Positions 3,827 to 26,689 of a stretch of 64,000 nt of DNA are shown here, piece after piece. The DNA is from Alphaproteobacteria bacterium (GTDB lineage Bacteria; Pseudomonadota; Alphaproteobacteria; Rhizobiales; CAJQND01). The stretch lies in NCBI GenBank assembly GCA_024227565.1, contig JAAEUE010000155.1, positions 1 through 64,000 on the forward strand, written 5' to 3'. A program made the position numbers and the translations under genes. The notes beneath the pieces were generated by a model that had not been told where the DNA came from, ran no database searches, and was given only the letters and a program-made list of their open reading frames with translations. Every line of letters starts with the position of its first letter. The stretch's first letter is position 1.

Positions 3827-5640
3827 TGTGAACCGCCACTCTCAAGATCGTCTAGATCTCCCAAATTCTCGGTTTCGCTCGTCTTCTCCTCGTTCTTAAC
3901 CGCTGTCTTCTGCTTCAGCGCGCCGCGCAATGCGTCTGCTAGTTGTGAGCTGACAAGCCCATCGCTTGACTGTCTCTGATCGGATTGGAATTTCCGAATT
4001 GCAGTTTTCGTCTTGCCACCCATCTTGCCGTCGATTGGGCCCGGGTCATATCCGAGATCAGCCAGCATGCGTTGAACGTCAGCAATGGAGGGTGGCCCAT
4101 TCGCGTCACCGGAGGTGCCTAAGCGTTCGACATACCTTACAATCGGCCCGTTGCGCGGAAACCTAACGGCCAAAAATCGCAAGTCCCCAACCTTGTCGGA
4201 GACGAGCAAGAGAAACGAATTTCGACCTTCGTTCTTCAGTTCCTTGGCACGCTTCACCAGATCTGCCAGCCTGGACATTTTGGTCTGCGCTATCTCCAAA
4301 ATGGCATCACCTACCTTAACGCGTTTCTCAGCGGCGTCGCTGTTCGGGTCGATTTTCGTAATCACCAAGCGGGCTTCTACTTTTGGACCTAGCTTGTATC
4401 TCGCACGCAATTCCGGTGTCAGGGCCTCAACTGTCATTCCCGAGAGTTCGACTACTCGGCGGGTTGTGGATGAGGTCTCACTCTTCTTCCCAGTAGTGTC
4501 GGCCGTTTCATCCAGGCGGCCAATTTTAAGGGATTTCGTTAGTGTTTCACCATCGCGGAATACTTCAAGTTCTGCAATTGAACCAATAGGCGTTCGCGCG
4601 ACCATGCGGGGCAGGTCCTTCACCTGCGCGATCACAACTCCATTCCAACGAAGCACAACGTCGCCGGGTTTCAAGCCCGCGATATCGGCGGGGTCGCCTG
4701 GTGTCACACGTGATACGAGTGCTCCCTTGGCCTTCGTCAGCCCAAGCGAACTTGCGATTTCATCTGTTACAGGCTGGATTAGCACCCCGATCTTGCCGCG
4801 CCGCGTCTCTCCAAATTGCCTTAGTTGATTAACCACGCGCTTGGCGGTCGAAGATGGAATCGCAAAGCCGAGACCGATTGATCCTCCGGTCGGGGAAATT
4901 ATTGCAGTCGCTATGCCGACCACCTCACCTTTGAGGTTGAAAACTGGTCCGCCTGAATTTCCACGATTGATAGCCGCATCTGTTTGAAAATAATCGTCGT
5001 AGGGGCCCGCATTAATGTCGCGATTTTTAGCTGAGACGATACCCACAGATACCGTGCCACCAAGACCAAACGGATTGCCAATCGCGATCACCTGTTCGCC
5101 GACGCGCAACGTTTCTGAGTCTCCAAATGTTATGGAGGTCAGAGGGGATACTGGCTCGACCTTTAAAACCGCCAAGTTCGTTTTTGAATCCCGACCGACA
5201 ATTTTGGCTTTCAGTTTTGTTCCATCGGAAAACCCGACCGTGATTTCATCAGCATCAGCAATGACATGATTGTTTGTGACGACTAAGCCCGCTGCATCGA
5301 TAACGAAACCGCTGCCGAGTGAGTTGGTCCTTTTAGCTTTGGTTTTATTTTTGCCTCCCTTGCCTTTTGGTTTGGGTTTGAAAAAGTTCTCAAAAAAGGG
5401 ATCGCCGGCGAACGGGCTATCTTTCGGTGTTGCTCGATCGGCTGTATTGGAGTTTGCGTTCTTTCGGGAAAGGTTTTTTGCCGAGATGTTCACAACGGCT
5501 GGAAGAACCCGCTCTACCAAGTTTGGAATTAACGCCGGATCATGAGCATGAGGCGAACTTGAAACCGCGACCAACAACATCGAGGTCAGGGCCACAAGGC
5601 GAAACAGCCAATTTGGCCGGCCAGCCGTGCGGACAGTCAT
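3823..5640 (-). CDS. HtrA/DegP-like protein, catalytic Asp replaced by Asn; two PDZ and PG-binding domains
   Basis: A 605-residue HtrA-family protein with a signal peptide, trypsin-like domain (about 40-270), two PDZ-like regions (about 275-370 and 390-490) and a PG_binding_1 domain (about 515-580; LADLGYDPGPIDGKMG). I chose the ATG at 5640 because a GGAGG sits just ahead of it and it aligns with the start of the paralogue; an in-frame upstream start at 5697 would overlap that paralogue's stop. With this start the catalytic His is His125 (TNNHVIAD) and the nucleophile Ser229 (GNSGGP). The position of DegP Asp135, in the motif D-(I/L)-A, is Asn155 (KTNLAVLK, codon AAC). The triad is therefore incomplete. 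It probably anchors at peptidoglycan in the periplasm. It shares an acidic C-terminal tail (LGDLDDL) with its paralogue. Residual or no proteolysis is an inference. Confidence 0.88.
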   Translation of the reverse strand: MTVRTAGRPNWLFRLVALTSMLLVAVSSSPHAHDPALIPNLVERVLPAVVNISAKNLSRKNANSNTADRATPKDSPFAGDPFFENFFKPKPKGKGGKNKTKAKRTNSLGSGFVIDAAGLVVTNNHVIADADEITVGFSDGTKLKAKIVGRDSKTNLAVLKVEPVSPLTSITFGDSETLRVGEQVIAIGNPFGLGGTVSVGIVSAKNRDINAGPYDDYFQTDAAINRGNSGGPVFNLKGEVVGIATAIISPTGGSIGLGFAIPSSTAKRVVNQLRQFGETRRGKIGVLIQPVTDEIASSLGLTKAKGALVSRVTPGDPADIAGLKPGDVVLRWNGVVIAQVKDLPRMVARTPIGSIAELEVFRDGETLTKSLKIGRLDETADTTGKKSETSSTTRRVVELSGMTVEALTPELRARYKLGPKVEARLVITKIDPNSDAAEKRVKVGDAILEIAQTKMSRLADLVKRAKELKNEGRNSFLLLVSDKVGDLRFLAVRFPRNGPIVRYVERLGTSGDANGPPSIADVQRMLADLGYDPGPIDGKMGGKTKTAIRKFQSDQRQSSDGLVSSQLADALRGALKQKTAVKNEEKTSETENLGDLDDLESGGSQ

Positions 5641-5693
5641 TTTACCCTCCTTGTTCGCAGGATGCTTCCTGCACTTTCGAGGCCGCAGCACCA

Positions 5694-7526
5694 TCATTGT
5701 GAACTGCCAGTATCAAGATCATCAAGATCTCCTAATTGATCTGTCTCGTTTGTGTTCGCCTCGTTCTTAACCGCCGCCCTCTGCTTCAGCGCCGCACGCA
5801 ATGACTTCGCCAAACGGGAGCTCACAAGTCCATCACTTGACTGTCCTTGATCGGTTTGAAATTTGCGGATTGCGACCTTTGTCTTGCCACCCATCTTGCC
5901 GTCGATTGGGCCTGGGTCGTATCCAAGATCGGCCAACATGCGCTGCACATCGGCAAGAGAGAGTGGTACACTCGGATTATCCGCTGTGCCCGCGCCAACG
6001 AAGCGTTTTACGAAAGACTCGGCGCTTTTCTTTAATCCTATGAACCGCACATCTCCCCGCCTGTTTGAGATCAGAACCAAAACAGTTGGCCGGCCATCCT
6101 TTTCGAGCTGCGCTGCACTTTTGACCACATCCCCCAAGCTTGAAACTTTTTCCTTGCCCAATTCTGCAATAACATCTCCGGGTGTGATCTTCTGTTCCGC
6201 CGCATCGCTTTCAGGATGCACGTTTGTCACCACAACTCCTGCCGTTACCTTGGGCTCGATTTTGAACTCTGCGCGCCGCGCGCGTGTCAGAGCCGTTAGG
6301 GTGACCCCCATCCATTCAATTTCGGAGAGTATTTGACTGGAACCCTTGTTCGTGGCCTTGCTGTCAGGCGAAGCCGCTGAGTGCGAGGACTCCTCCAGAC
6401 GGGCGACAGTGACTTTTTTGGCCAACCTCTCACCATCACGAAAGATGATGGCATCCACCACAGAGCCAGGCGGTGTTCCGGCCACCATGCCTGGCAGGGC
6501 CCTCATCTGCGGAACTTCCACGCCGTTCCAGCGCAGCAGCACGTCGCCTTTCTTCAGTCCAGCCTGCTCAGCGGGTCTGCCAGGGATCACTTCGTTGATG
6601 AGTGCACCTGTAGATTTTGCGAGACCTATTGCACTTGCAACCTCATCCGTTACCGTCTGAATTCTCACGCCTATTGTGCCGCGCCGAGTTTCTCCAAATT
6701 GCCTCAATTGAGCGACCACATTCTTGGCGGTCGAAGACGGCACCGCAAAGCCGATGCCAATTGATCCCCCGCTGGGGGATATTATGGAAGTGTTTACCCC
6801 GACCACTTCGCCATGAAGATTGAACATTGGCCCACCGTTGTTGCCACGGTTAACGGCAGCGTCACTCTGAATAAAATCGTCGTAGGATCCCGCATTAATG
6901 TCGCGATTCTTAGCTGAAACAACCCCCAGGGACACTGTGCCACCAAGCCCAAATGGATTGCCGATTGCAATTACCTGCTCGCCAACGCGCAGTGTTTTGG
7001 AGTCGCCAAATGCTACAGACGTCAGTGGAGCAACAGGCTCCACCTTGAGAACAGCCAAGTCGGTCTTCGCGTCTGTGCCGACAATTTTGGCTTTCAGCTT
7101 TGTTCCACCGGAAAATCCGACCGTGATTTCATCAGCATCAGCAATGACATGATAGTTTGTAACCACTAAGCCAGCTGCATCGATGATAAATCCCGAACCG
7201 AGCGACTGCACTTTGCGCGGCCGGGAGCGACGCTTTCTCTTGCCCGTTTTGGGATCTTTCGCAAAAAACTCCTCGAAAAATTCTCTGAAGGGTGAGCCTT
7301 CAGGGAGATTCGGAACGGAAGGCGCGCTTGTCTTTGCATCTTTGGAAGCCTTGGCTTTACCGGTTGTAGAGATGTTTACAACGGCCGGAAGGACCCGTTC
7401 CACAATATCGGGAATCTGCGCGGGATCGTGGGCGTGGATGGAACTGCTCATGATCATAAGTAGCGCCACCAAGCAGCACAATTGAAAGGTCGTTTTTGTT
7501 ACAACGAACAGCTGCCATTTCTGCAT
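5694..7526 (-). CDS. HtrA/DegP-like pseudoprotease, catalytic Ser replaced by Asn; PDZ and PG-binding domains
   Basis: A 610-residue tandem paralogue of the next gene downstream, with the same layout: signal peptide, trypsin-like domain, two PDZ-like regions, PG_binding_1 domain and acidic LGDLDDL tail. His126 (TNYHVIAD) and Asp156 (KTDLAVLK) of the triad are present. The nucleophile position is Asn230 (GNNGGP, codon AAC) where HtrA enzymes have Ser in GNSGGP, so classical serine protease activity should be lost. The rest of the domain, including the oxyanion-loop glycines, is intact, arguing for a retained binding or chaperone role. The gene lies 56 bases after the PDZ-only gene, and its stop abuts a remnant start shared with the downstream paralogue. 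It could instead act as a regulatory partner in mixed trimers with the paralogue. Confidence 0.9.
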   Translation of the reverse strand: MQKWQLFVVTKTTFQLCCLVALLMIMSSSIHAHDPAQIPDIVERVLPAVVNISTTGKAKASKDAKTSAPSVPNLPEGSPFREFFEEFFAKDPKTGKRKRRSRPRKVQSLGSGFIIDAAGLVVTNYHVIADADEITVGFSGGTKLKAKIVGTDAKTDLAVLKVEPVAPLTSVAFGDSKTLRVGEQVIAIGNPFGLGGTVSLGVVSAKNRDINAGSYDDFIQSDAAVNRGNNGGPMFNLHGEVVGVNTSIISPSGGSIGIGFAVPSSTAKNVVAQLRQFGETRRGTIGVRIQTVTDEVASAIGLAKSTGALINEVIPGRPAEQAGLKKGDVLLRWNGVEVPQMRALPGMVAGTPPGSVVDAIIFRDGERLAKKVTVARLEESSHSAASPDSKATNKGSSQILSEIEWMGVTLTALTRARRAEFKIEPKVTAGVVVTNVHPESDAAEQKITPGDVIAELGKEKVSSLGDVVKSAAQLEKDGRPTVLVLISNRRGDVRFIGLKKSAESFVKRFVGAGTADNPSVPLSLADVQRMLADLGYDPGPIDGKMGGKTKVAIRKFQTDQGQSSDGLVSSRLAKSLRAALKQRAAVKNEANTNETDQLGDLDDLDTGSSQ

Positions 7527-7582: not shown

Positions 7583-8677
7583 TTAATCCAGTTCATCCAG
7601 CCCTTCCAACTTCAACGGGCCTTCCTCTTCAACAGGCGGGACCATCGAGGTATTTGCCGCCTCATTTTTTCGCTTTGCGGCCTCGTGGATTTTTCGAAGC
7701 AGCCATGGTGAAAGCTCCCCACTCTGACGTATTCCTCGATCACGCCGAAACGCTGATATCGCTGATCGAACCCGATTGCCTAGCACGCCGTCCTTTGGAC
7801 CTGGATCGTACCCAAGCGCGCTCAGATCGCGCTGAAGCTTCAGCACCGCTGAACGCGAAGTTATGCCTTGGGTCGTAGATTTGCGGGCATGTAAAGCGGT
7901 TCGCTCGGTTCTTACGGTGGGTGATTTTGTTTGCACCAACGCCAAGCGGATCACCCGCCCCGACCGCTTCACGCGCATCCTCCATTTGCGGTTTCCGGCG
8001 GCGAGTGCGCTTACAAGATCCGATACAGTTTCAGTTTTTCGTTCATTGATTTCAGAAACAATGTCTCGTTTGCGGAATCCATTGGTGTTTGCAGTCCGCG
8101 CTCCTGGATCAATTATTACGACCCCGCGCTCAAGCGCGCCAAGCTCCAACTCCGTTCCTACGGCTGGAGACAGGTTCGCCATGATTGCGCCTGAAAATGG
8201 ATTGCGACCGCTGATGAGCGTTTGGCGGCGAGGCGGAATTTCAGGTGCCGCCTCGGCTCGCACCCGTACAGTGTTGACCTGACCGGCACGACTGTAAGTA
8301 AGAATAAATGTTCCAGCGGGTGAGATTTCCTTCAGAAAAAGGTCCAAATCCTGAGGGCCGGTTAATTGCACAGCATCAAGTGCAATAAGCACGTCGCCTT
8401 TCACAATCCCAGCTGATCTTAGCGGGCTTGACCGATGCAGTTCCCTCACCAACGCCCCTCTGGTGGAGCTTAAACGATATGCCTCAGCAATTTCCTCTGG
8501 CACCCTTGAGGCAAGCGCGCCACTCCAACTGCCTTGAACCTCAGCGGCGGCGTTCGAGGCTTGGGCAATTACTATTTGTCCGTCCGAGCTAGCCTCGTTT
8601 GCGGCGGTACCGTCAGGAATTGATGTAAGACACGTAACGAGGAGCAAACATAGGGGCCGGACAGGTTCTGAGACCAT
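7583..8677 (-). CDS. Secreted PDZ-domain protein with peptidoglycan-binding domain, no protease domain
   Basis: A protein of about 364 residues that looks like the C-terminal half of the two downstream HtrA paralogues. A signal peptide is followed by a first PDZ-like region (GALVRELHRSSPLRSAGIVKGDVLIALD), a second weaker PDZ-like region (about 170-250), and a PG_binding_1 domain (LSALGYDPGPKDGVLGNRVRSAI). The tail ends EGLDELD, echoing the acidic tails of the HtrA proteins. I prefer ATG 8677, with GGTGAG about five bases upstream, over a GTG at 8686. It is first in the operon. A plausible role is scaffold or substrate adaptor for the HtrA-like proteins at the cell wall; this is inferred from domain sharing alone. 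Confidence 0.82.
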   Translation of the reverse strand: MVSEPVRPLCLLLVTCLTSIPDGTAANEASSDGQIVIAQASNAAAEVQGSWSGALASRVPEEIAEAYRLSSTRGALVRELHRSSPLRSAGIVKGDVLIALDAVQLTGPQDLDLFLKEISPAGTFILTYSRAGQVNTVRVRAEAAPEIPPRRQTLISGRNPFSGAIMANLSPAVGTELELGALERGVVIIDPGARTANTNGFRKRDIVSEINERKTETVSDLVSALAAGNRKWRMRVKRSGRVIRLALVQTKSPTVRTERTALHARKSTTQGITSRSAVLKLQRDLSALGYDPGPKDGVLGNRVRSAISAFRRDRGIRQSGELSPWLLRKIHEAAKRKNEAANTSMVPPVEEEGPLKLEGLDELD

Positions 8678-8686
8678 ACATCTCAC

Positions 8687-15752: not shown

Positions 15753-18221
15753 TTAGTTGACGAGGAACTTGATGGCTGTACGGCCAGCTGCTTCCTGCTT
15801 CGTCACCTTCTTGCCGGTTTTCTTGTCTTTCACCTTCACCGTGGGCACCACTTTGATGGCACGGGTGGCGAACTTTCTGTACTCGCCGATTGAGGTGAAG
15901 GCGTTCTTGGCAAAGTCGTGCTTGATGCCCTTGCTGGCAGCTTTGGTTTTTCTGCACAGGGCAACAACGGTTTCCTTGCCAGGATCCTGCAGTTGGAACT
16001 TGAACTTCGCTTTCTTGCCAGGGAAGTGGAACTCCTTATTGGCTTTCAGGAAGTTCTTCTGCTGGAACTTGTTGGGGAAGATCACCGTGGCCTTGTCCTT
16101 GGCATCCACATTGATCAGGGTCAGGAAGCAGTCCTGCTCTGTCTTCACGGTGAACACTGCATGCTCATGCACCTTGTAAGACGACTTGTCAGAGAACAGC
16201 GCCAGGTGGAATGAACCTGAATTCAGGCGGTCTTTCGCGTCAGGCTTTGCAACACCTTCGGTGGCTACAGCCGTCTCAGTTGCCGCTTCCGCAGAGATCT
16301 TGAGGACTTCACCCTCGGTGACCTGCGGAATGAGCGTTGCGAAAACCACTTCGAAGTGATCGCGAGGGACAAGACCCTGTTCCAGGCGACGCTTCAAGGC
16401 GAAGGCTTCTCCGCCAGCAGCACCGAGCGCGTCTTTGAACTCACCTTCCAGCTGGCCAAATTCAACCGCTGCCGTGCGCATGGTCAGATCTTGACGCTCA
16501 TAGAGGTCTGAGAGAGCGTTGACCATTTCCACATCGTTGAGCTTCAGGCGGGGATCCAAGCCAGCGCGCTTCATTGCGGCGGCCCAGGTGCCCTGATCCT
16601 CATCCAGCATACGCTTCATGGTATTAGCGTCCGGATAGAGTGCCTTAACGGCGTCGCGTGTGGCCTTGGGGAACGACCGTGTCGCCATGACATGTTTCCG
16701 AACGTCATCCTTGGCTTTGCGGATGCCTTGGTCATGACAGCCCAGGCAAGAGATGCCGTTGGTCACAGCAAAGTCCTTGCGGGAAATGTCGCGGACGATC
16801 TCGGTCGGGCCTTTGTTGATCCGTTTGCCATCGGCTGTGTTCAGGTAGTAGGCGTGAAATCCGTTAGGCAGGGAGAAGATTGTCTCTCCGCCATCATGAC
16901 GAAAACTTTCTTTGCCGGTTGGCCCCATGGGAAATGCAAGCAGGCTCTGTCTTTCGCGGTTGCCTGCGAAATCATAGGAGGTCCAGAAAACGCCGTTGGA
17001 AATTGTATGGCGTTCGATCAGCCTGTTGTTCTGGCTGACACCGGATTTTTGGAAGCCGGCGCGGTGGGCAAGGAAGTTTTTGATGTTCGCTTCAACATCC
17101 AAGCCAAGTTGCTTCTGCAGGCCTTGGAAGGTGTCAGGCAACTTCAACAAGGCATGATAGAGTGCCGGACGCGAGGCAGCAAAGGCGAACCAGTCGCCAC
17201 GCACGTAAGGCAACTGCGTATTCGTCGCGGTTTGCAGAAAGCTGAACATCTGCGTGTCTGGCTTGATACCATAGGGGTAGGATGCCAGGATCGTCGTCCA
17301 GTCATTCTCGGTCCATTTCAAGTCGGAAAGATGGAACCGGATGATGCTTCTTGCCGGATCAACGGTCTCGAGCTTCACCACATCGGAATTTTGACTGAGG
17401 CTGTTCAAGAGCTTCACCACTGCTTGGCGGTAAACCTCCATGTTCTTATCAGGTGTGCAGGTGTTGGTGAGGTGAGTGAGGGTAATGTAACGGGTCCCCT
17501 TCACGCGGTGGTCTTGCAGTGAATTCAAATCGTTTGCGATGGCCTGAACAATCTGCTCATCGCTCATAAAGTCATCAGACTTGCACGAGGCGGCCACCTG
17601 TTGACCCAGAGACGACACCCAATCGCGCAAAGCAGCGATTTCGTTGGACGTGGGCGAGGGGAAGCCAGAATCTTCACCGGTCAGTTCCGCATTGCGCACA
17701 TCATAAGGCATGTCGGCCCGCACCGGGTCTGCGGTGCGCTTGATCAGTTCGGACGCGTCCGGGTTGCCTGGCAGCACGAACCTTGAATTTGTCGCCAATT
17801 CATGAAGTTTCAGCACGTTGCCGAAGTTGCTCGCCACTTTCTCTCGCTTGCCCAACTGACCAGCTTGGTGGCAGCGGGCGCAGTGCTTGTCGAGAACGTC
17901 GAACGCTGCCTTTGCAACAGGGTCTTTCGGCGGGTCAATTTTTTCCGCCGCTGGCTGGGTTTCGGCCGCTGCAACCTCGGTTGTCTCGGCTTCTGCCGCT
18001 GCGGGCTGTGTTGCCTCAGCTTCGGTTGCCGCAGGCGCGGTTGCTTCCGATTCGGTTGCCGCAGGTTCTTTCGCCGCAGGTTCGGTTTCGGCAGCAGCTT
18101 CGCTGTTTTGGGCCGTGGTTATGGTTGAATTTGCATCGTTTGCAGTGCTGAGCTGCACCTGCGCGCCGAAAGCTGCGCACGTGAGCATCGTAGTGAGGAG
18201 GGTTTTGGCGAGTTTGGTCAT
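15753..18221 (-). CDS. Exported protein with two c-type haem motifs and C-terminal DUF4384
   Basis: An 822-residue exported protein. After the signal peptide there is an Ala/Glu/Thr/Pro-rich low-complexity spacer (about 40-95), then a cytochrome c-like domain with CARCH (Cys114, Cys117, His118) and a possible Met ligand in ADMPYD. The middle section is all-helical and unrecognised. A second haem motif, CLGCH (Cys492, Cys495, His496), follows. The C-terminus (about 680-770) matches DUF4384 (FLTLINVDAKDKATVIFPN), a module otherwise typical of caspase-linked signalling proteins. ATG 18221 has GGAAG just ahead; a GTG lies at 18233. A perfect Crp-type site is about 60 bases upstream. I infer a periplasmic redox sensor or electron-transfer partner working with the nearby caspases, which share DUF4384. 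Confidence 0.85.
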   Translation of the reverse strand: MTKLAKTLLTTMLTCAAFGAQVQLSTANDANSTITTAQNSEAAAETEPAAKEPAATESEATAPAATEAEATQPAAAEAETTEVAAAETQPAAEKIDPPKDPVAKAAFDVLDKHCARCHQAGQLGKREKVASNFGNVLKLHELATNSRFVLPGNPDASELIKRTADPVRADMPYDVRNAELTGEDSGFPSPTSNEIAALRDWVSSLGQQVAASCKSDDFMSDEQIVQAIANDLNSLQDHRVKGTRYITLTHLTNTCTPDKNMEVYRQAVVKLLNSLSQNSDVVKLETVDPARSIIRFHLSDLKWTENDWTTILASYPYGIKPDTQMFSFLQTATNTQLPYVRGDWFAFAASRPALYHALLKLPDTFQGLQKQLGLDVEANIKNFLAHRAGFQKSGVSQNNRLIERHTISNGVFWTSYDFAGNRERQSLLAFPMGPTGKESFRHDGGETIFSLPNGFHAYYLNTADGKRINKGPTEIVRDISRKDFAVTNGISCLGCHDQGIRKAKDDVRKHVMATRSFPKATRDAVKALYPDANTMKRMLDEDQGTWAAAMKRAGLDPRLKLNDVEMVNALSDLYERQDLTMRTAAVEFGQLEGEFKDALGAAGGEAFALKRRLEQGLVPRDHFEVVFATLIPQVTEGEVLKISAEAATETAVATEGVAKPDAKDRLNSGSFHLALFSDKSSYKVHEHAVFTVKTEQDCFLTLINVDAKDKATVIFPNKFQQKNFLKANKEFHFPGKKAKFKFQLQDPGKETVVALCRKTKAASKGIKHDFAKNAFTSIGEYRKFATRAIKVVPTVKVKDKKTGKKVTKQEAAGRTAIKFLVN

Positions 18222-18247
18222 CTTGGCTTCCACTGAACTGGTTTTTT

Positions 18248-18316
18248 GAACCTTAACAGTTCCAGCGCGTCACGATGTGACATCCGTCACAGCGCGCGCT
18301 GAAACTGTTAAGGTTC
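18248..18316. repeat. Long inverted repeat enclosing a Crp site
   Basis: Arms at 18248-18270 and 18294-18316 match at 21 of 23 positions. The centre of symmetry is within two bases of the centre of the TGTGA-N6-TCACA site. On the minus strand the hairpin is followed by an A-run, not a T-run, so it is not a normal terminator for the cytochrome c' gene. A regulatory cruciform, mRNA hairpin or extended operator are all possible. Confidence 0.75.
18276..18291. promoter_or_regulatory. Perfect Crp-type binding site
   Basis: TGTGACATCCGTCACA fits the consensus TGTGA-N6-TCACA exactly. It is centred about 62 bases upstream of the ATG of the two-haem DUF4384 gene. A Crp/Fnr gene paired with an adenylate cyclase gene lies within 1 kb, which makes it the obvious regulator. 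Confidence 0.72.
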
Positions 18317-18338
18317 GGTCCCCGGTGGGCTAAGATTG

Positions 18339-18788
18339 TTAGTTTTTCTTGATTCTATAATCCTGGTGGCAGGCCTTGCAGTTTTTTGCAAGGGCACCAA
18401 AAGCTGTCTTGAAATCGCCTTCGCCAGCCTTTGCCGCTTTGACTGCGGCAGCCGAAGCTTCCTGGAATTTCGCCGTCAAAGCATCAAATCCGGCTTTGTC
18501 TTCCCAAATTTTCGGGGCCGCTTCAGTGTCTCCGCCCGTTTTGGAGCTATCAGGGAACATGGATGAGAGACCTGATGCAGATGAGTTCATCACACGCATG
18601 GCCAGTTCGGCGGCAAGGCTGTCAAACGGGATTTTCCCTTTTACCATTCCTCCGGCGACGCGCATGGCAGCACCAACATTCTTCATCATGGCCTGCCGGT
18701 TCGCGATGGGATCGCTTGCGATGCTTGCAGTGGTGCCCACCAGACTGGCAACGCAGAAGGCGGCAACTTTAATGTAAGTAGTTTTCAT
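18339..18788 (-). CDS. Cytochrome c'-family protein
   Basis: A 149-residue periplasmic four-helix cytochrome of the c' type. It has a clear signal peptide (cleavage near IASD), an N-terminal RQAMMKNVGAAM helix and the haem-binding CKACH motif near the C-terminus, followed by DYRIKKN. That placement is diagnostic of cytochrome c'/c-556. The start at 18788 has AAAGGATCG before the ATG; an upstream extension has no signal. It lies upstream of the two-haem DUF4384 gene on the same strand, with the Crp site between them. Known family roles are gas (NO) binding or electron transfer. Confidence 0.88.
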   Translation of the reverse strand: MKTTYIKVAAFCVASLVGTTASIASDPIANRQAMMKNVGAAMRVAGGMVKGKIPFDSLAAELAMRVMNSSASGLSSMFPDSSKTGGDTEAAPKIWEDKAGFDALTAKFQEASAAAVKAAKAGEGDFKTAFGALAKNCKACHQDYRIKKN

Positions 18789-19059
18789 ATCGATCCTTTG
18801 CAAAAAACGAGATTCCGGAAAGCAAATGGTAGCGATAGTTTTTCGTCCGCGCAATGAACTTTAGAGGAAAAACCGCGTAATACTATGACCGCAAATGAAA
18901 AATGCTGTAATTGTGACACAGGGCGGAAATCAGGCTTGGTTTACACCCGTTTACGCTGGGGTGTTGCTAAATGGGAACAATGTGGGTCTGATGGAACCTA
19001 GATCGCGGGGGAGACGTCTGCGTGCTCGGCCGGGGAGTGGACGAAACAGGAAAAGAGCG
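18789..19059. promoter_or_regulatory. Divergent promoter region, cytochrome c' and crp operon
   Basis: About 270 bases between divergent transcription units. A lone TGTGA half-site (ATTGTGACA) occurs near 18910, but no full Crp palindrome is seen. No coding frame is convincing apart from the short leader next to crp. Confidence 0.4.
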
Positions 19060-19089
19060 ATGAGCGTGTCAGTAGGTGGTCGAACATGA
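19060..19089 (+). CDS. Possible nine-codon leader ORF coupled to crp
   Basis: An ATG preceded by AGGAAAAGAG opens a nine-codon frame (MSVSVGGRT) whose TGA overlaps the crp start as ATGA. This would couple crp translation to the leader. It may also be chance, since the crp start has its own AGGTGG. Confidence 0.3.
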   Translation: MSVSVGGRT

Positions 19090-19793
19090 GACGGTATTCT
19101 CTTGAGGAAAAGAGCAAGCTGCTGCGTAACCACTTTCTCCTGAAAACCCTCTCCGACGAGGATCTGGAAAAGCTTGCGCGCTATTCACAGGTGCAAGAGG
19201 TGGAACCTGGCACCGTGATTTTCAGCAAGAGCGATGCGGGCGACAGCATGATGGTGATCATCGCCGGCAAAGTGGTGATCGGGTCGACGTCGGTGGCCGG
19301 CAAGGAACTGGTTCTGAACATCATCGGCGAAGGCGAAGTTCTCGGTGAAATCGCATTCATTGACGGCGAAGCGCGCACGGCAGATGCCCGTGCGCTTGAG
19401 GAAACCGTCTATCTGGTGTTGGAGCGGCGTTACTTTCAGCCCTTGCTGGACGAGCAGCCAAAGCTCGCCTCCGAACTTCTGGGTGTTCTGTGCCAACGGT
19501 TGCGCAACACCACGGACCAAATGGAAGACACGGCATTTTATGAGCTCAAAACCAGACTGGCGCGCAAACTCATGGCATTTGCCCAACATTATGGCGAGGC
19601 GTCCAATGAGCTCGACAATGTTGAACTGCCGGTCAACCAATCGGAACTGGGAGCAATGCTCAGCGCAACGCGAGAGAGTGTGAACCGTCAGTTGCGCGAG
19701 TTGGCAAACGCTGGGCTCATAGAACTCAACCAGGGCGCCATCACCATTCTTGACCGCGATGGCTTAGACGACCAGGCGCAGGAGTATTCGTGA
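19086..19793 (+). CDS. Crp/Fnr-family transcription regulator, probable cAMP receptor
   Basis: A 235-residue regulator. The cyclic-nucleotide domain spans about 15-135. Its phosphate-binding cassette reads GEIAFIDGEARTADARA, keeping the Gly-Glu and Arg-Thr features that contact cAMP in Crp. No Fnr-type Cys cluster is present. A long C-helix leads to the winged helix (about 175-225: NQSELGAMLSATRESVNRQLREL). The stop overlaps the cyclase start as GTGA, so receptor and cyclase are made together. The two TGTGA-N6-TCACA-like sites flanking this locus fit the usual recognition pattern of such a helix with Arg-Glu-Ser. cAMP binding is inferred from motif and gene pairing. Confidence 0.9.
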   Translation: MRRYSLEEKSKLLRNHFLLKTLSDEDLEKLARYSQVQEVEPGTVIFSKSDAGDSMMVIIAGKVVIGSTSVAGKELVLNIIGEGEVLGEIAFIDGEARTADARALEETVYLVLERRYFQPLLDEQPKLASELLGVLCQRLRNTTDQMEDTAFYELKTRLARKLMAFAQHYGEASNELDNVELPVNQSELGAMLSATRESVNRQLRELANAGLIELNQGAITILDRDGLDDQAQEYS

Positions 19794-21799
19794 TCTTGCA
19801 AAGTCTGAAGGCTAAAGCCGCTGGCAAGGCTCCTGAGAACGATGGCTCCCCGGGCAGCGAGCGTCTTTCATGGCGGCTCACCACGGTGCTCACGCTGGTG
19901 GCGACCGCCGCCGTGTTGGCGTTGCGCGCCCTTGGAGGTTTGGAATTTCTAGAGCTTGCGGCCTATGACCAGTTCTTGAGAATGCGTAGCGGGCACTTGG
20001 AACAACCGCCAAATGTTGCCGTTTTGGCCATAGATGATGCCGAGTTGGACAAATCAGGCTGGCCATACCCGGACAAGGATCTTTCGCGCCTCATCCAGGC
20101 AGGCCTGGATGCAGACGCTGCAGTCGTAGCCATCGACATCTATCGCGGAACGCCTGTGGCGCCGGGTTCAGAGGCATTGAACAAGGTTTTGAAAGAGACA
20201 AACAACGTGGTGGGCGTGTTCAAGTTTGGTGCGACCGATGACAAAACGGTCAAACCCCCTGCTGCCATCGTGAGCAAACTCAGGACTGGTTTCACAGACA
20301 TGTTGACCGACCGGGGCGATGCTTTCGTCAGGCGCAGTTTGCTCTATGCGGGCGATGGCAAGAGCGTCGCCACAAGTTTGGGCGCACAAACCGCGCGCAT
20401 ATGGCTGAAGGGCAAAAAGATTGTTCCACGGGCATCCCCCGACAACCGCAGACACCTGAAACTCGGTGAGGCGGTGCATGTTCCGCTCCACAAAAATTTC
20501 GGTGGCTATCGAAATATGGATGCCAAGGGCTACCAGTTTCTCTTCGACTTCCGGCGAACGCCGGCTGAAGTCCCCACGGTTAAGGCAAGCGAGTTACGGG
20601 CCGGCACCGCCGACGCCAAGAAGCTAGAAGGGCGCATTGTCTTCATCGGCGTGACCAGCCAGTCGGTCAAAGATTATTTTGCCGCCCCCGTGCGTGCCGA
20701 TGCCGCAAAGCGCCAGATCTACGGCGTTTATCTGCATGCTCTTGCAGCCGATCAGCTGGTGCGCATGGCGCTGGGACAAAGCGGCGCGGCGCAGTCTTTG
20801 CCTATGCCGCTCACCCTATTTCTCTGCGCCTTGATCGCGTTTGTCTCAGGGGCCGTTATCCGCACCAGAAACCTCTCTCAGGAACAGCTCTTGGGTGCGG
20901 TTGTGCTCGTTGTGGCGGTCTCGGGGTTGAGTTATCTGGCCTTTGTCTATGACTGGTGGGTTCCGGTTGTGCCGTTCTTGTTGTGTGGGCTCCTGTCCAT
21001 GATATTGGCGGTTGGTTTCAAGGAGATCACCGAACGGCGCAGGCGTGCCGCCCTTGCCGGATTGCTGGCCAATCAAGTTTCCCCGGCCATTGCCCGTGAG
21101 CTGTGGGACCATCGCCACATGATCCTGGATGGGGGCCGGCCCAAGCCCGTTCGCCTCACCGCAACGGTTATGTTTGTAGATTTGGAAGGTTCCACCAGCA
21201 ATGCAGACGAGCTGCCCCCAGAAGAGCTTGTTGCTTGGGTGAGCGCATTTCTCGAGGAAGCCGCCAACGCAGTCATCAGATACAACGGTGTCATTGAGAA
21301 ATTCACCGGCGACGGTCTCATGGCGGTATTTGGTATTCCGGTGCCCCGCACAACTGATGAGGAAATTGCCGATGACGTTCGGCGCGCTTGCGATTGTGCA
21401 ATCGATATTGCCGAGCGCACCGACCGGTTGAACGAGCGCGCCGCTGCCAACAATACGCCATATACAAAGTGCAGGGTTGGCATTCATACTGGCCGTTTGT
21501 CTGCCGGCAACGTGGGCACCAAGCAGCGTATGAGCTACACTGTCATTGGTCAGGCGGCCAATCTGGCGGCGCGGCTGGAAGCCTATGGGAAAGATGACCC
21601 GCTTGTGGCGCAAACCCCCTCAGGCGAGGTCATTGACTGCCGCGTACTCCTGAGCGAAGATTCTGCATCGCTGTTGAATGGACGCTATAATTTGGAACCG
21701 CTCGGAAAAGCAGATCTGCGCGGTTCCCGTGATAAGATGAAAATATACAGGCTTCCAACCAAGCCCGTCATTGAAACCCTTCAAGGAGGCTCCGAATGA
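19790..21799 (+). CDS. CHASE2-domain class III adenylate cyclase
   Basis: A 669-residue membrane cyclase. One N-terminal membrane segment (about 30-52) leads to an extracytoplasmic CHASE2 sensor (about 55-320; YDQFLRMRS, VAVLAIDD). Three membrane segments follow (about 325-410), then the catalytic domain (about 450-630). The metal ligands are in FVDLEGST and FTGDGLM. The Lys of EKFTGD and the Thr of SYTVIGQAANLAARLEA match the purine-specifying pair of adenylate rather than guanylate cyclases, and the Arg of AARLEA is kept. It starts with GTG inside the crp stop and ends overlapping the DUF928 start. It should convert an envelope signal into cAMP for the adjacent Crp. Confidence 0.92.
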   Translation: MILQSLKAKAAGKAPENDGSPGSERLSWRLTTVLTLVATAAVLALRALGGLEFLELAAYDQFLRMRSGHLEQPPNVAVLAIDDAELDKSGWPYPDKDLSRLIQAGLDADAAVVAIDIYRGTPVAPGSEALNKVLKETNNVVGVFKFGATDDKTVKPPAAIVSKLRTGFTDMLTDRGDAFVRRSLLYAGDGKSVATSLGAQTARIWLKGKKIVPRASPDNRRHLKLGEAVHVPLHKNFGGYRNMDAKGYQFLFDFRRTPAEVPTVKASELRAGTADAKKLEGRIVFIGVTSQSVKDYFAAPVRADAAKRQIYGVYLHALAADQLVRMALGQSGAAQSLPMPLTLFLCALIAFVSGAVIRTRNLSQEQLLGAVVLVVAVSGLSYLAFVYDWWVPVVPFLLCGLLSMILAVGFKEITERRRRAALAGLLANQVSPAIARELWDHRHMILDGGRPKPVRLTATVMFVDLEGSTSNADELPPEELVAWVSAFLEEAANAVIRYNGVIEKFTGDGLMAVFGIPVPRTTDEEIADDVRRACDCAIDIAERTDRLNERAAANNTPYTKCRVGIHTGRLSAGNVGTKQRMSYTVIGQAANLAARLEAYGKDDPLVAQTPSGEVIDCRVLLSEDSASLLNGRYNLEPLGKADLRGSRDKMKIYRLPTKPVIETLQGGSE

Positions 21800-22464
21800 G
21801 CATATGCAGACAGAAGAACGTTCGAGCTTGTGTCCTCGCAGTTGGCCTCTCGCTAGGCATGGCTGCGGCTCAACTGGTTTCCATGCCAAGCTCATCGCTT
21901 GCCCAAAGCACGAATGAGGAGGTTGACGTTGTCTTTGTGCCGCCTGTCGATGGCGCGCCGGCGGAGCGGATCGGCGCAGGCACCCGCGGCTCCGGGTCTC
22001 CAAGCGATCGTCTAAAGTTGATCGTCCCGCAGGGCGGTGCGCTCAGTTCCTCAACTTCGCCGGTGCTTTATTGGTGGATAGCCGCGCCCTACAAAGGCAA
22101 GCTGCAGCTCAGCCTTACCCGGGATGGAACCGACGCTCCGTTGCTCGATGCGGTTGAAGACGTTTCCTTGAAGGCAGGCCTGAACACGCTCAGCCTGGGC
22201 GATTTTGGTGTGCGGCTGCAGGCGGGCGACATTTACCGCTGGAGCATTTCACTTGCGGGCGGGGATCTCAATGAATCAGCCTTCAGCTATGTTGAGTTTC
22301 GTAAAACCGACGTTGCCTCTGGTGGCAACCCGGCAAAAAACGCCAAAGCCCTGGCGGGAGCAGGCATCTGGTACGACGCCTTCGCCCTGGTTGCGGCGAA
22401 CGAAAAATTAAGCGGAGCCCGCGATGCCATGTTGGGCCAAGTTGGCATTAAACTGACCAACTAG
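21796..22464 (+). CDS. DUF928 family exported protein
   Basis: A 222-residue protein with a signal peptide (to about residue 37) and a DUF928 domain: RIGAGTRGSG, LKLIVPQGGALSSSTSPVLYWWI, LQAGDIYRWSISL and a final GIWYDAFALVAAN. DUF928 is best known from cyanobacteria, where, from memory, it recurs beside CHASE2 and CHAT/caspase-type proteins; here it sits beside CHASE2 and caspases. It overlaps the cyclase stop by four bases and ends inside the CTAG of the two-hairpin repeat. A periplasmic partner or ligand of the CHASE2 sensor is a reasonable inference. Confidence 0.82.
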   Translation: MSICRQKNVRACVLAVGLSLGMAAAQLVSMPSSSLAQSTNEEVDVVFVPPVDGAPAERIGAGTRGSGSPSDRLKLIVPQGGALSSSTSPVLYWWIAAPYKGKLQLSLTRDGTDAPLLDAVEDVSLKAGLNTLSLGDFGVRLQAGDIYRWSISLAGGDLNESAFSYVEFRKTDVASGGNPAKNAKALAGAGIWYDAFALVAANEKLSGARDAMLGQVGIKLTN

Positions 22465-22567
22465 AGCTTATTCCGCTCAGGTTGAGCGGAATAAGCTCCA
22501 GATTATCGTTACGAACGAGCAACTTATCTCCGACGAGACGTAACCCTCTGATCGGAGGTTGCTCTAG
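22461..22567 (+). repeat. Two-hairpin dispersed repeat, copy 1
   Basis: About 107 bases bounded by CTAG at each end. The first hairpin (22464-22498) has a perfect 16-base stem and three-base loop. The second (22517-22564) has GAGCAAC/GTTGCTC outer arms. The inverted copy at 56441-56548 shares most of the sequence. It sits between convergent DUF928 and caspase genes and supplies the DUF928 stop codon, and could act as a two-way terminator. The CTAGAGC end resembles small palindromic repeats of Rhizobiales. Confidence 0.85.
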
Positions 22568-22579
22568 GGCATGTGTGGC

Positions 22580-24094
22580 TTATTTGACGATTTCATACTC
22601 TAGCGCACCCAAAGACCAACGGACGGCGCGGTTCTTCTTGTCCTTGCGGTGAACTGCCAAGAGATTGGAGGCGAGGTCGGTGACGAACTCCTCTGAATTG
22701 GGCACCACCGCTATCGCACGGTTGGCCGCGAGCAGTTGGTCAAGAGGCACTTTGTCTTCGGTCACGATGGCCAAAAGCTTGCCCCGGCCAAGCGGCTTGC
22801 CGGCTGCAAACGCGAACCCATAATAGTCATCCGGAATGGTGATCTTGCGGCCCGGCACGATCTCATGGTCACGCCCGTTCTGCAACATGATATCGTTCGG
22901 AATGAGCTGAGTAACTTCGCCGTTTGCGTTGACATCCAGGAGAATGAGTGAACCGGGTCTCTTCGCGGTCACCGATATTCTGAATTCCTGGCCAAGGTGC
23001 AGAGTGCCGCCCGGTGACAGTTCAATGTGCACATCCGCATCATTCGATTGAACAAGAACTTCGGCGACAGCTTCAGCGGCGCCGGCTTCAGGTTTGCTGG
23101 GCGGCTTTTCTGCGGTCTCAGTTGTCGTCTCCTCGCTGCCACCAGACGCCGGCTCGGCGGCAACCGGAACAATCGCCCGGGACAGCGCGCTTGGGTGAGA
23201 TTCCAATGTGGGTGTAAATCCAAGCTGGCTGCAGCGCGGGTTGGTCTTGCAATATTCTGCGGCTTCAATGCGCAGATAGGCGATCAGTTCGGCGTGGGTC
23301 ACGGTGCCGTTCTTGTTCTTGTCGGCCAGCTTCTTGCCAACCCCGTTGATGAAATTGCGGGTGAACACGCCGCCACCCAGCGTGTCCCAGGAAAACTGGT
23401 TGGCTGAGGCTGCAGACCAAATCTTCAACTTGCTGGCAGACTGCAGAAAACTTGCCTCGCCCCGGTGCGCGCGAACCTGATCAGAGGTTGGCGCGGCACC
23501 TCTTGTGCTCAAATCTGGAATGAAGGTTCTTGCTTGATCTTCGGATGTACCGGCGTCCTGTTCGGCCACGCCGCGTGAAATCGTGCCGGAATGACAGGAA
23601 TCGATGATCACGGTCAGGTCCCGGTCGGACATCTGGGTCAGAATGGCGCCGAACTCGTCGTCGGTGATCTGGTTGCCGCCCTCTTTCGTGGTGTCGATCG
23701 GCGACAGGGTTTCGTCCAAGCCGTCCTTTTCATCACTGTTGTTGTCCGGCAGCTGACTGCCATGGCCGGAGTAGTAGATGAACACCTTGTCGCCCGCCTT
23801 GGTGGAGCGGATCAGCCAGTTGTTCATGGTGCGCAGCAGGTTCTTGCGCGTTGCCTGGCTGTCTTTGAGAACCGCGATTTCATCGGTCCGGTAGCCCATA
23901 TGATCCTTCAGGAACTTCTCCATCCGGACCAGATCGCGCGGCGGCCCCACCAGAGGGCGAATATTCTGATAGGCACCAATGCCGATAAGCAGCGCTTTTT
24001 GACTGGCCTCAGCCGGAGACGGCAGTGCACTGCATGCGGCAACGGCCCCGGCAACGAGACTTAGGGCGAGGGTATATGATCGGCGAAACTGCAT
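22580..24094 (-). CDS. Exported caspase-like protease (peptidase C14) with EF-hand and DUF4384
   Basis: A 504-residue metacaspase-type protein. The N-terminus has a hydrophobic segment with a possible lipobox (VAAC, Cys21). The caspase domain (about 32-250) holds the dyad His111 (YYSGHGSQ) and Cys167 (DSCHSGT). DEKDGLDETLSPID matches the acidic S1-pocket region of metacaspases, predicting Arg/Lys specificity. A canonical 12-residue EF-hand loop (DKNKNGTVTHAE, 258-269) follows. The C-terminus (about 350-450) is DUF4384-like (SLILLDVNANGEVTQLIPND). It follows the other caspase gene by 14 bases. Ca2+ control and periplasmic action are inferences. Confidence 0.9.
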   Translation of the reverse strand: MQFRRSYTLALSLVAGAVAACSALPSPAEASQKALLIGIGAYQNIRPLVGPPRDLVRMEKFLKDHMGYRTDEIAVLKDSQATRKNLLRTMNNWLIRSTKAGDKVFIYYSGHGSQLPDNNSDEKDGLDETLSPIDTTKEGGNQITDDEFGAILTQMSDRDLTVIIDSCHSGTISRGVAEQDAGTSEDQARTFIPDLSTRGAAPTSDQVRAHRGEASFLQSASKLKIWSAASANQFSWDTLGGGVFTRNFINGVGKKLADKNKNGTVTHAELIAYLRIEAAEYCKTNPRCSQLGFTPTLESHPSALSRAIVPVAAEPASGGSEETTTETAEKPPSKPEAGAAEAVAEVLVQSNDADVHIELSPGGTLHLGQEFRISVTAKRPGSLILLDVNANGEVTQLIPNDIMLQNGRDHEIVPGRKITIPDDYYGFAFAAGKPLGRGKLLAIVTEDKVPLDQLLAANRAIAVVPNSEEFVTDLASNLLAVHRKDKKNRAVRWSLGALEYEIVK

Positions 24095-24108
24095 GCGATT
24101 GTGTCCTG

Positions 24109-25677
24109 TTAGTTCGCTGTAAATATCCCGGTGTAGCCAAGTTGAAACGTTTTACCGTCTAAGGCTTGCCGCAACAGCAGGCGCAGTTTTCCGGCAGCCT
24201 TGCGCCCATCCAGTTTTTTCAGAGCTTTGATCAGCTGGGCATTCTGTTCGTTGGCGGCGATTGCCACCAGATGATCGGCACCAAAGGGCGCGACCACTTT
24301 CAGCGGAAAGCGAAGCGGCTGGCCCTGCTTGAGGATGCCATGGTAGCGCGGGTCAGGGTCCTGGGGAGCAGGCAGGATGAACTGCACGGTGCCGTCAACC
24401 GCCAGGTTGAACGCGGTCAACTTGGGATGATTGTGCCCGCCAAGCTGGATCGCGATCTGTTCGCCCGACCGGTGCAATTTGTCATTGGGCTCTACGCGCA
24501 CCGACAATGGATTGGTTTCGGCCAGCTGAGCCAGATCGCGCAGCAGCAGCCACTTGTCGACAATCGCTTGGGCGTTGGCCGCGCTTGCTTTGGCACCAAG
24601 ATGGGCGATCACATCGCCATTGCTTGTCAACACATCGCCGCTGGCATAGTCCCAAATCAGATCAGCATTTTCGGTGGCCGCAAGGGTAACGTTTGTCAGT
24701 TCTCCGCCCAAGCCGTTGTTTGCAGGCGGATTGACGATGCTCAGAGTTGCCGGCCGGTCGAATTCGTCCGGCTCAGCCTTGCCCACGTTCAGGGTAATCT
24801 CGGCAGGCTTGCCGCGGGGTGTCATTTGCGGATGCTGCCGGCCAGAAGAGCGGGTGCGAACCGATTCGGTAACGTACCGGGCCAGCTCAGCTGTGTTCAC
24901 CTTGCCGTTCTTGTCGATGTCTGCGTTGCCCCGCAGAGCACGCGCGAAGCTCCACGACAAAGCGCCTCGAGGTTTCTGATCAATCTTGATTTCCTGCACC
25001 ACCTGGTCATCGCGCACGGCGCCGAAATAGACGATGTTGTCCAGGTCTTCCGGGTTCAACGCCGCCGTTGCCTCAGTTGGTTTGGGCAATGGATCATCGA
25101 CGATCGCGCCGTAACCGCCCAGGCGGGTGCGCAACACACCCGAGCGGCTGTCGAAGCCGCGGGTCATGGTTCCTGAATGGCAGGAATCTGCCAGAAAAAT
25201 GATCTTCAAATGGCGCGCCTTGGCGAACAACAGGTTGATCTCATCGTCGAGGATGCGCTCACCATTGCCGGGCCGGATGTTTTGAAAACCGGCGAGCTGG
25301 AATGTTTCATCCAGGCGGTCGGTCTCGCTGCCCACCACGCGTTCAGGTTCTTGACCGCCATGGCCGGCATAGGAAAAGACGATCGTGTCGCCCGGTGCCG
25401 CTTCTTCGGTGAGGTCGCGCCAGCTCTGCAGAATTTTTGCCCGTGTGGCCTCGCCGTCCAGCAGCAGGATAACCTTCTTGGCACCCATGGTGCGCAGGGC
25501 ACTGTCGATATCGCGGGCATCGTTCACTGCCCCGGCAAGCGAGGGCAGGTGTTGGTATTTATCAATCCCAACCACAAGGCCATAGACCTCGGCGCGCGCG
25601 CCAGTGGCCGCGAAAAGACAAAAAGAAAGGGCTAGGAGGAGGGTACGCGCGGCAACCGTACTTACAAAAGCTCTCAT
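24109..25677 (-). CDS. Second exported caspase-like protease with EF-hand and DUF4384-like region
   Basis: A 522-residue metacaspase-type protein with a cleavable signal peptide (ATGARA-E, about 30). The caspase domain has His106 (SYAGHGGQ) and Cys166 (DSCHSGT), so the dyad is intact. SETDRLDETFQLAG stands at the S1-pocket region. A canonical EF-hand loop, DIDKNGKVNTAE, spans 253-264. The C-terminal region (about 390-490; LTAFNLAVDGTVQFILPA) is DUF4384-like. Its start overlaps the OmpA-family gene stop as ATGA, and the other caspase follows. Sequence identity to that caspase is modest, so they are old paralogues, possibly an activation pair or with different substrates. Confidence 0.9.
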   Translation of the reverse strand: MRAFVSTVAARTLLLALSFCLFAATGARAEVYGLVVGIDKYQHLPSLAGAVNDARDIDSALRTMGAKKVILLLDGEATRAKILQSWRDLTEEAAPGDTIVFSYAGHGGQEPERVVGSETDRLDETFQLAGFQNIRPGNGERILDDEINLLFAKARHLKIIFLADSCHSGTMTRGFDSRSGVLRTRLGGYGAIVDDPLPKPTEATAALNPEDLDNIVYFGAVRDDQVVQEIKIDQKPRGALSWSFARALRGNADIDKNGKVNTAELARYVTESVRTRSSGRQHPQMTPRGKPAEITLNVGKAEPDEFDRPATLSIVNPPANNGLGGELTNVTLAATENADLIWDYASGDVLTSNGDVIAHLGAKASAANAQAIVDKWLLLRDLAQLAETNPLSVRVEPNDKLHRSGEQIAIQLGGHNHPKLTAFNLAVDGTVQFILPAPQDPDPRYHGILKQGQPLRFPLKVVAPFGADHLVAIAANEQNAQLIKALKKLDGRKAAGKLRLLLRQALDGKTFQLGYTGIFTAN

Positions 25678-26591
25678 CGCAACAACTCTACCCGGCGGCT
25701 CATCTGATGGAGCTCTTCAACCGAATATTTCTCCGGATTGGTAGGCTCGAAAGGCTGGCGTTCCCCATGGCCAATGATCTTGATATCGGCAGCATACTCT
25801 GCAGCGCTCAAGAATTCTTTGACCCTCTCTGCCCGCCTGATTGAAAGCTCATGATTTGCGGCATCCGATCCCACAGGGTCGGTGTGGCCCGCCAAAGTGA
25901 TGGACGGGGCGCCTTGTGCCTTGAGGTAGGAGAGCAGATCCTGTGCAGCCGCAGTGCCCTTCTCGGTAAAATCGGCACTGCCGAATTCAAATGTGATGGG
26001 CACGGCCACTTTTTTGATTACGACACCTCGGATGGACGGCGCCCCAAGACCTGTGGGGGCGCCGCGGGTGCGCGGCACGGCAACATAATTCTGTGACAAC
26101 AGGCGCGCTGTTTCCGCCTTGCCAACAATCATCTTGATTGTGGCGGCTGAAGGGGCCTTCTTCGTCAGAGTTGCATCATCGATCGCGTCCAGCGCCTGCT
26201 GATAGCGCTTCGTGGCTTCTTCGCGGTTGAGCCTGTCATCAGAAATATCACCGAGCGTGGCAAGAACTTGCCAATGGCGGTAATAGTGCAGGCTGTCGAT
26301 CAGATCGATTTCCAGCTCTTCCAATTTGCGGCCCTGTTTCAGCGCGGCTTCAACTTTCGCGGTGATGGCGACGGAAACCTTGCGGCCCAGTGCGCGCTTG
26401 AAGTCTGCGTCACAATCAGCCCGCGCCTCTGCCTTGGCAAAAAGCGCTTTTAGCGTTTCCACATCTTGGTTGGCTTGATTGGTTTGTTCGAAAAGCTGTG
26501 TGCACGTTATAGCACTTTGCGCGGACGTAACTGCGCCACAAAGGATGAAAGCCGCGGTGGCCAAGCTTAGTGATGTTTTTCCTAAGACCAT
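25674..26591 (-). CDS. OmpA-family peptidoglycan-associated protein
   Basis: A 305-residue exported protein. A signal peptide is followed by a helical region (about 30-180) with tetratricopeptide-like character and a C-terminal OmpA domain (about 195-305). TFEFGSADFTEKG, LAGHTDPVGSDAANHELSIRRAERVKEFL and IIGHGERQP are the peptidoglycan-binding signature, with the Asp and Arg contacts present. It is the first gene of the OmpA-caspase-caspase operon, coupled by ATGA to the caspase. A Crp-like site lies about 90 bases before its start. It may tether or present the caspases at the cell wall; this is inferred from operon order. Confidence 0.88.
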   Translation of the reverse strand: MVLGKTSLSLATAAFILCGAVTSAQSAITCTQLFEQTNQANQDVETLKALFAKAEARADCDADFKRALGRKVSVAITAKVEAALKQGRKLEELEIDLIDSLHYYRHWQVLATLGDISDDRLNREEATKRYQQALDAIDDATLTKKAPSAATIKMIVGKAETARLLSQNYVAVPRTRGAPTGLGAPSIRGVVIKKVAVPITFEFGSADFTEKGTAAAQDLLSYLKAQGAPSITLAGHTDPVGSDAANHELSIRRAERVKEFLSAAEYAADIKIIGHGERQPFEPTNPEKYSVEELHQMSRRVELLR

Positions 26592-26673
26592 GTCTGAGCC
26601 TAGTTTTTTTGTTCTTCGGTTGCGATGTCACCATACAATAGGTCTGACTGTAGGAGAATGAAAAGATCTTTGC

Positions 26674-26689
26674 AGTGACTCAAGTCACA
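26674..26689. promoter_or_regulatory. Near-consensus Crp-type site upstream of OmpA-caspase operon
   Basis: AGTGACTCAAGTCACA matches TGTGA-N6-TCACA at nine of ten key positions. It is centred about 90 bases upstream of the OmpA-family start and about 126 upstream of the divergent GntR gene. With the perfect site at 18276 it brackets the crp-cyclase operon. Confidence 0.6.

Follow-up and report, generated by a model that had tools for sequence, protein, structure and literature searches.

How bacterial caspase homologues function and how they are activated are long-open questions, and the locus described here raises them in a specific form: does a block of genes that joins a CHASE2-bearing class III nucleotide cyclase, a Crp-family regulator, a DUF928 protein, two C14 caspases and an OmpA-family protein act as one envelope-sensing circuit? 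The block lies in a stretch of 64,000 nucleotides (hereafter the window, always at its full length) on contig C155 of an alphaproteobacterial draft genome (G000; 5.47 Mb in 418 contigs), and an earlier note, made from the letters of this stretch, had read it as such a circuit, with a redox partner switched on beside the caspases. We put the probability at about 0.58 that the module is a conserved envelope-sensing cyclic AMP (cAMP)-Crp circuit whose predicted targets include periplasmic caspases. The linkage of the genes, the intact residues of cyclase, Crp and caspases, and the conserved promoter sites lend support to the circuit as it had been proposed, while its redox half found no support beyond one genus.

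All eight genes that had been named, i.e., those for the haem-DUF4384 protein, cytochrome c', Crp, the CHASE2-cyclase, DUF928, the two caspases and OmpA, were indeed recovered as open reading frames with Pfam matches (Table 1). The Crp, cyclase and DUF928 genes overlap by 4 bp at both joins, OmpA and caspase 1 also overlap by 4 bp, and the two caspase genes are separated by 14 bp; thus, they fall into two operon-like units, which were confirmed to be convergent and meet over a hairpin at ~22463-22500. Transcription of the haem-DUF4384 and cytochrome c' genes points away from Crp. Linkage of Crp, CHASE2-cyclase and DUF928 in relatives had been set beforehand as a test on which the proposal could fail, and the three were found together in eight alphaproteobacterial genomes, four of which also have the caspases, so that the linkage holds in other genera and families. 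Among the 41 relatives searched, clear Crp orthologues were detected only in a genome of the same genus (G001, 91%), in one of another family (G038, 58%) and in G039 (53%). The order and convergence of Crp, cyclase, DUF928, both caspases and OmpA are kept in G001, in which the block is divided by a contig end with both halves present, in unchanged order, on two contigs, and in G038, in which Crp-cyclase-DUF928 is followed by convergent OmpA, DUF4384, caspase 2, caspase 1 and OmpA genes. In G039, Crp-cyclase-DUF928 is convergent with caspase 1 and a gene for a Sel1/peptidoglycan-binding protein. The caspase 1 orthologues are unmistakable, one each in G001, G038 and G039 (E values of 2e-293, 1e-175 and 2e-160, the next-best caspase standing at 6e-19); in G038 and G039 they are part of the module, and in G001 the orthologue adjoins its DUF928 and cyclase end.

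Crp-type sites were found upstream of both the haem gene and the OmpA-caspase operon, as had been claimed. The number of sites in the window is by itself no better than chance (2 seen, 1.55 expected), and conservation was therefore tested instead. The site in the OmpA-caspase promoter is conserved in two genera (TGTGACTTGAGTCACT in the window, TGTGACCTGTGTCACT in G001 and TGTGATTCACGTCACA in G038); the window and G001 have largely unrelated DNA upstream of it, so that promoter conservation starts roughly at the site. Read on its own strand, the haem promoter site is TGTGACGGATGTCACA in the window and TGTGACTGACGTCACA in G001, and an additional site, TGTGACACAAATCACA, stands ahead of Crp itself in G038. 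In the three genomes in which DUF928 is a unit of its own (G240, G332 and G409), TGTGA-N6-TTACA occurs ~50-70 bp before DUF928, and both intergenic gaps of another alphaproteobacterial locus (G047, below) contain one Crp-type site each. With one mismatch at most, TGTGA-N6-TCACA was counted nine times in the 2.6 kb of module promoter gaps against four times in the other 166 kb (binomial p ~3e-14); when one genome was kept per lineage, the count was seven inside the gaps against two outside (p ~6e-12). The 29 permuted half-sites together gave one match inside the module gaps and 101 outside, and no site was found in 9.1 kb of other intergenic DNA. Genome-wide, the regulon was analysed by pattern searches, in which the perfect motif outnumbered its mirrored control in all three genomes (12 against 3, 9 against 1 and 13 against 0). 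These results show that the predicted Crp-type sites are non-random in position and conserved; the motif is kept in the module promoters, as is expected of a Crp regulon, except in G039 and in the module of locus L091 (genome G523). Separately, an identical perfect site, TGTGATTTCATTCACA, was seen at C155:85631 of G000, on the window's contig near a gene that by eye is MerR-like, and at C111:40538 of G001.

The cyclase and the regulator both retain the residues on which such a circuit would depend. In the CHASE2-cyclase, D464, K504, D508, T584, N591 and R595 are in register with those of solved adenylyl cyclases, e.g., CyaB (3r5g), and provide the two metal-binding Asp residues, the substrate-selecting Lys and Thr/Asp, and the transition-state Asn and Arg of class III. 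Since all six determinants are kept, adenylyl cyclase activity is the natural prediction, and the enzyme probably makes cAMP. The regulator combines a cNMP-binding domain, a kept phosphate-binding cassette (GEIAFIDGEARTA) with pocket residues E88, R97 and T98, and a Crp winged helix, as do members of the Crp family. Its recognition helix, TRESVNR, is CRP-type, with the Arg-Glu-x-x-x-Arg pattern by which E. coli CRP reads TGTGA. Against the enteric CRP equivalog model NF008732 it scored 84 bits, the cut-off being 266, and it is thus a Crp-family member but not the enteric CRP equivalog or orthologue. We infer that the module's own Crp, rather than a paralogue, binds the predicted sites, and that the binding activates rather than represses.

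The His/Cys dyad is likewise intact in caspase 2 (YYSGHG, IDSCH) and in caspase 1 (H106 in SYAGHG and C166 in ADSCH). The SGHG/AGHG and DSCH motifs are also kept in the orthologues of both, which agrees with a C14 p20 fold bearing this dyad, and the nearest solved structures to both in the PDB are metacaspases. At the level of sequence, both the linkage across families and the integrity of the predicted catalytic and ligand-binding residues are shown. When inspected by eye, both caspases start with a predicted export signal, and caspase 2 has a possible lipobox; the DUF928, caspase and OmpA proteins of the module are probably exported, which would place the caspases in the periplasm. The C-terminal domain of caspase 1 is a diverged DUF4384-like domain (hhalign probability 76%, E 2.4e-5), so that both operon caspases and the haem protein probably share DUF4384. 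The peptidase is recurrently coupled to peptidoglycan-binding parts, namely OmpA in the window, PG_binding_1 in Roseobacters and the peptidoglycan-binding neighbour in G039, and this fits peptidase action at the cell wall or the outer membrane. A structure model of DUF928 predicted an Ig-like beta-sandwich with C-terminal helices; Foldseek matched it to generic Ig/FnIII-like sandwiches with weak scores only, and no function can thus be read from the fold.

Table 1. Features of the module in the window, with positions, strands and supporting matches
Feature	Position	Strand	Evidence or remark
Haem-DUF4384 protein, predicted exported	15753-18218	-	Pfam DUF4384 (C-terminal) E 9e-20; CxxCH at residues 113 and 491
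Inverted repeat, 69 bp, between cytochrome c' and haem gene	18248-18316		Crp-type site at tip; RNA fold z -8.7
Crp-type site TGTGACATCCGTCACA (perfect)	18276-18291		~57 bp upstream of haem-gene ATG
Cytochrome c' (Cytochrom_C_2), predicted exported	18339-18785	-	Pfam E 9e-32; one CxxCH
Crp-family regulator	19086-19793	+	Pfam cNMP_binding 2e-20, HTH_Crp_2 1e-17
CHASE2 class III nucleotide cyclase	19790-21799	+	Pfam CHASE2 7e-44, Guanylate_cyc 2e-16
DUF928 protein, predicted exported	21796-22464	+	Pfam 5e-11
Caspase 2 (C14 + DUF4384)	22580-24094	-	Pfam 4e-24, 2e-14
Caspase 1 (C14)	24109-25677	-	Pfam 4e-18
OmpA-family protein, predicted exported, first gene of caspase operon	25674-26591	-	Pfam 3e-14
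Crp-type site AGTGACTCAAGTCACA, TGTGACTTGAGTCACT on operon strand (one mismatch)	26674-26689		~82 bp upstream of OmpA-caspase operon

The haem genes behaved differently from the rest of the block. Outside G000 and G001, the window's genus, neither the haem gene nor cytochrome c' is linked to the module; G038 and G035 have their haem-gene homologues elsewhere in the genome, and no Crp-type site was found at these homologues or at the paralogues in G000 and G001. The haem proteins were rejected as part of the module core on these grounds, and are best regarded as a genus-level accessory, perhaps recruited through the Crp-type site. It is to be noted that this site forms the tip of an inverted repeat, the arms of which have changed in G001 yet remain able to pair (GCAACGTG with CACGTTGC), TGTGAC and GTCACA being identical. 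Such compensation supports a kept dyad or hairpin with a fixed candidate Crp half-site within it; a palindrome at the tip of a kept dyad is therefore weaker evidence for Crp than the sites at OmpA. The repeat is unique in the genome and is followed by no run of U on either strand, and it was accordingly dismissed both as a dispersed element and as an intrinsic terminator. A separate perfect Crp-type site was seen in locus L058 at position 1501 (genome C291:45226), ~80 bp upstream of a hemA-like gene, which looks by eye like 5-aminolevulinate synthase and which Pfam assigns to aminotransferase class I/II; the hemA-like identity, if true, would tie haem supply to a Crp-type regulator. About 8 kb away from the caspase module, the window also holds a further envelope-protease cluster, in which two HtrA-like proteases (trypsin + PDZ + PG_binding_1) lie in tandem at 3826-7526 on the minus strand, together with 329-3826, and are neighboured by a 1166-residue protein without Pfam match and a PDZ/peptidoglycan-binding protein at 7586-8686.

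Outside the Crp-bearing lineage, the association of sensor, DUF928 and peptidase proved to be far wider, which a reader of the window's sequence could not have seen. With one genome taken per species, a cyclase scan gave 80 loci; the window's own locus included, 22 fall into the CHASE2-cyclase subfamily considered here and 59 outside it. DUF928 was present at 16 of the 22 and a C14 or CHAT peptidase at 11 of the 22, while the remaining 59 had no DUF928, C14 or CHAT. At four Roseobacter-group loci (L097, L102 of Ruegeria HKCCSA071, L104 and L106), the cyclase and DUF928 are neighboured by a caspase that bears a peptidoglycan-binding domain. Planktothrix (L095) has the row cyclase-DUF928-TPR-CHAT, a Desulfarculales metagenome-assembled genome (L093) has ShlB, TPS-CHAT, cyclase and DUF928, a member of the Spirulinaceae (L096) encodes a TPS-CHAT protein close to its cyclase, and the alphaproteobacterium G047 (L177 135-5554) has CHASE2-cyclase, TPR-CHAT and DUF928 in a row. 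Among 385 genomes sampled from the class and 397 from the order (~780 alphaproteobacterial genomes), only nine have DUF928; the cyclase adjoins in all nine and Crp as well in seven (G000, G001, G039, G523, G240, G332 and G409), G038, found separately, being the eighth such genome. This near-obligate partnership in Alphaproteobacteria offers a concrete hypothesis for DUF928. In cyanobacteria, DUF928 was present in 32 of 39 genomes, and about half of the DUF928 loci examined have CHASE2/cyclase, CHAT or TPS within 1.5 kb on either side. We entertain, at slightly less than even odds, the broader idea that CHASE2-cyclase, DUF928 and a clan-CD peptidase (C14 or CHAT) make up an envelope-signalling system that is general among bacteria and unites a cyclic-nucleotide sensor and a periplasmic caspase-like protease in one pathway; in one alphaproteobacterial lineage, the protease genes would have come under a dedicated Crp, which closes the loop.

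As proposed, the Crp-bearing circuit would work as follows. A stimulus in the periplasm, which exported DUF928 may bind or present, would be read by the CHASE2 domain, upon which the membrane-bound class III cyclase would make cAMP in the cytoplasm. The co-transcribed Crp would bind cAMP and then the TGTGA-N6-TCACA sites in the module's own promoters, thereby setting the dose of the peptidoglycan- or outer-membrane-associated pair of caspase-type proteases encoded by the OmpA-caspase-caspase operon, so that the amount of exported caspase would follow the stimulus; in the window's genus, the dose of the di-haem DUF4384 protein would be set likewise. The output would be limited proteolysis of envelope proteins; this output, the envelope signal as input and the nature of that signal are all presumptive. 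Several observations weigh against the scheme. In the cyclase of G039 (L041 7720-9732), the adenine-selecting Lys is replaced by Thr (VETFTGDG), and the product may differ. The window's genome encodes several Crp/Fnr paralogues (8 matches) and three CHASE2 proteins, and cAMP and sites may therefore be shared; the two further CHASE2 proteins are of a different subfamily and have no caspase or DUF928 within 1.5 kb. No caspase was found within ~9 kb of the L091/G523 and G188 modules, nor any Crp-type site at the G039 caspase 1 promoter or in the L091/G523 module, though both keep Crp. Finally, the site counts concern promoter gaps that were delimited for the module once its first sites were known, in lineages that are partly non-independent.

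The Crp-less core is more widespread than the version with Crp, and the main rival accordingly counts the peptidase as part of the sensor: CHASE2-cyclase, DUF928 and clan-CD peptidase would form a physical envelope complex, in which the peptidase cleaves or activates the sensor or DUF928 upstream of cAMP, and Crp, added in one alphaproteobacterial clade, mainly autoregulates the locus. The Roseobacter, cyanobacterial and Desulfarculales versions retain cyclase, DUF928 and C14 or CHAT, and no Crp was found next to them; CHAT stands in for C14 at otherwise matching loci, and a CHASE2-caspase fusion has been reported in Trichodesmium (PMC2853523, PMC3501461). However, the caspase domain of the reported fusion is predicted to be cytoplasmic, unlike the predicted exported caspases of the module, and in the Crp-bearing lineages Crp-type sites stand at separate OmpA-caspase or DUF928 units, which points to control of the output; we consider the complex unlikely, but still the most serious of the alternatives.

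A looser view, in which Crp is a general cAMP regulator, its sites are ordinary members of the regulon and the caspases are incidental passengers, draws on the 19 C14 caspase-family proteins of the G000 draft genome (including a tandem pair on C128), which give a ~7% chance of one lying within 10 kb of a given gene, and on the twelve perfect Crp-type sites genome-wide, including the one upstream of the hemA-like gene. Mere neighbourhood does not readily explain why the caspase 1 and OmpA orthologues stay with the module across families with order, direction and promoter site kept, or why a caspase or CHAT peptidase lies beside 11 of 22 subfamily cyclases against none of 59 other cyclase loci, and we judge it improbable. 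Least of all do we favour a system for defence or programmed death run by cyclic nucleotides, comparable to Pycsar or to the EACC1-associated caspases. Partial matches to the PADLOC PycC and caspase models and a weak match to the NCBIfam EACC1-type caspase model hint at it, but the latter (NF047832) gave 50.0 and 33.5 bits, its cut-off being 140, neither a TIR nor a transmembrane effector was found, the match of Crp to Pycsar effectors is confined to their cNMP-binding part, the caspases carry predicted export signals, and no defence genes occurred among the neighbours examined. With effectors missing and the cut-off unreached, the defence system was rejected as very improbable.

The joint module had been thought undescribed, and no description of it was found in the open-access literature, the range of the search, outside which subscription papers and preprints lie; CHASE2, caspase, adenylate cyclase and bacteria gave no joint report there, and DUF928, almost absent from it, appears in a WD40 survey. 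Circuits of a membrane class III adenylyl cyclase and a Crp-family receptor are known in bacteria, e.g., rhizobial cyclases with Clr and Pseudomonas CyaB with Vfr. The window's module resembles them in its membrane sensor cyclase, CRP-type cAMP receptor and TGTGA-type sites, and differs in that cyclase, receptor and DUF928 share one operon and that the predicted targets are periplasmic caspases. The cyanobacterial CHAT/TPS/TPR loci, on which no paper was found, share the CHASE2-cyclase and DUF928 core, but have CHAT instead of C14, and no Crp or OmpA was found there. The Trichodesmium fusion, reported in 2010 (PMC2853523; also PMC3501461), similarly ties a CHASE2 sensor to a caspase; as described, it is one protein with a predicted cytoplasmic caspase and no cyclase, whereas the window has separate genes, a predicted exported caspase and a cyclase output. 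According to a 2012 study (PMC3501461), 14 predicted metacaspase operons include OmpA, and Alphaproteobacteria have operons with several metacaspases; the window's operon is like these in its OmpA and multiple metacaspases, while that study describes no coupling to cyclase, Crp or DUF928. OmpA-metacaspase operons are thus already known, and what appears to be new is their coupling to CHASE2-cyclase, Crp and DUF928. The module, as its sequence reads, suggests a hitherto undescribed switch for bacterial caspases, and since its two predicted exported caspases would answer to a dedicated cAMP receptor whose sites can be recognised, the question of caspase activation becomes directly testable.

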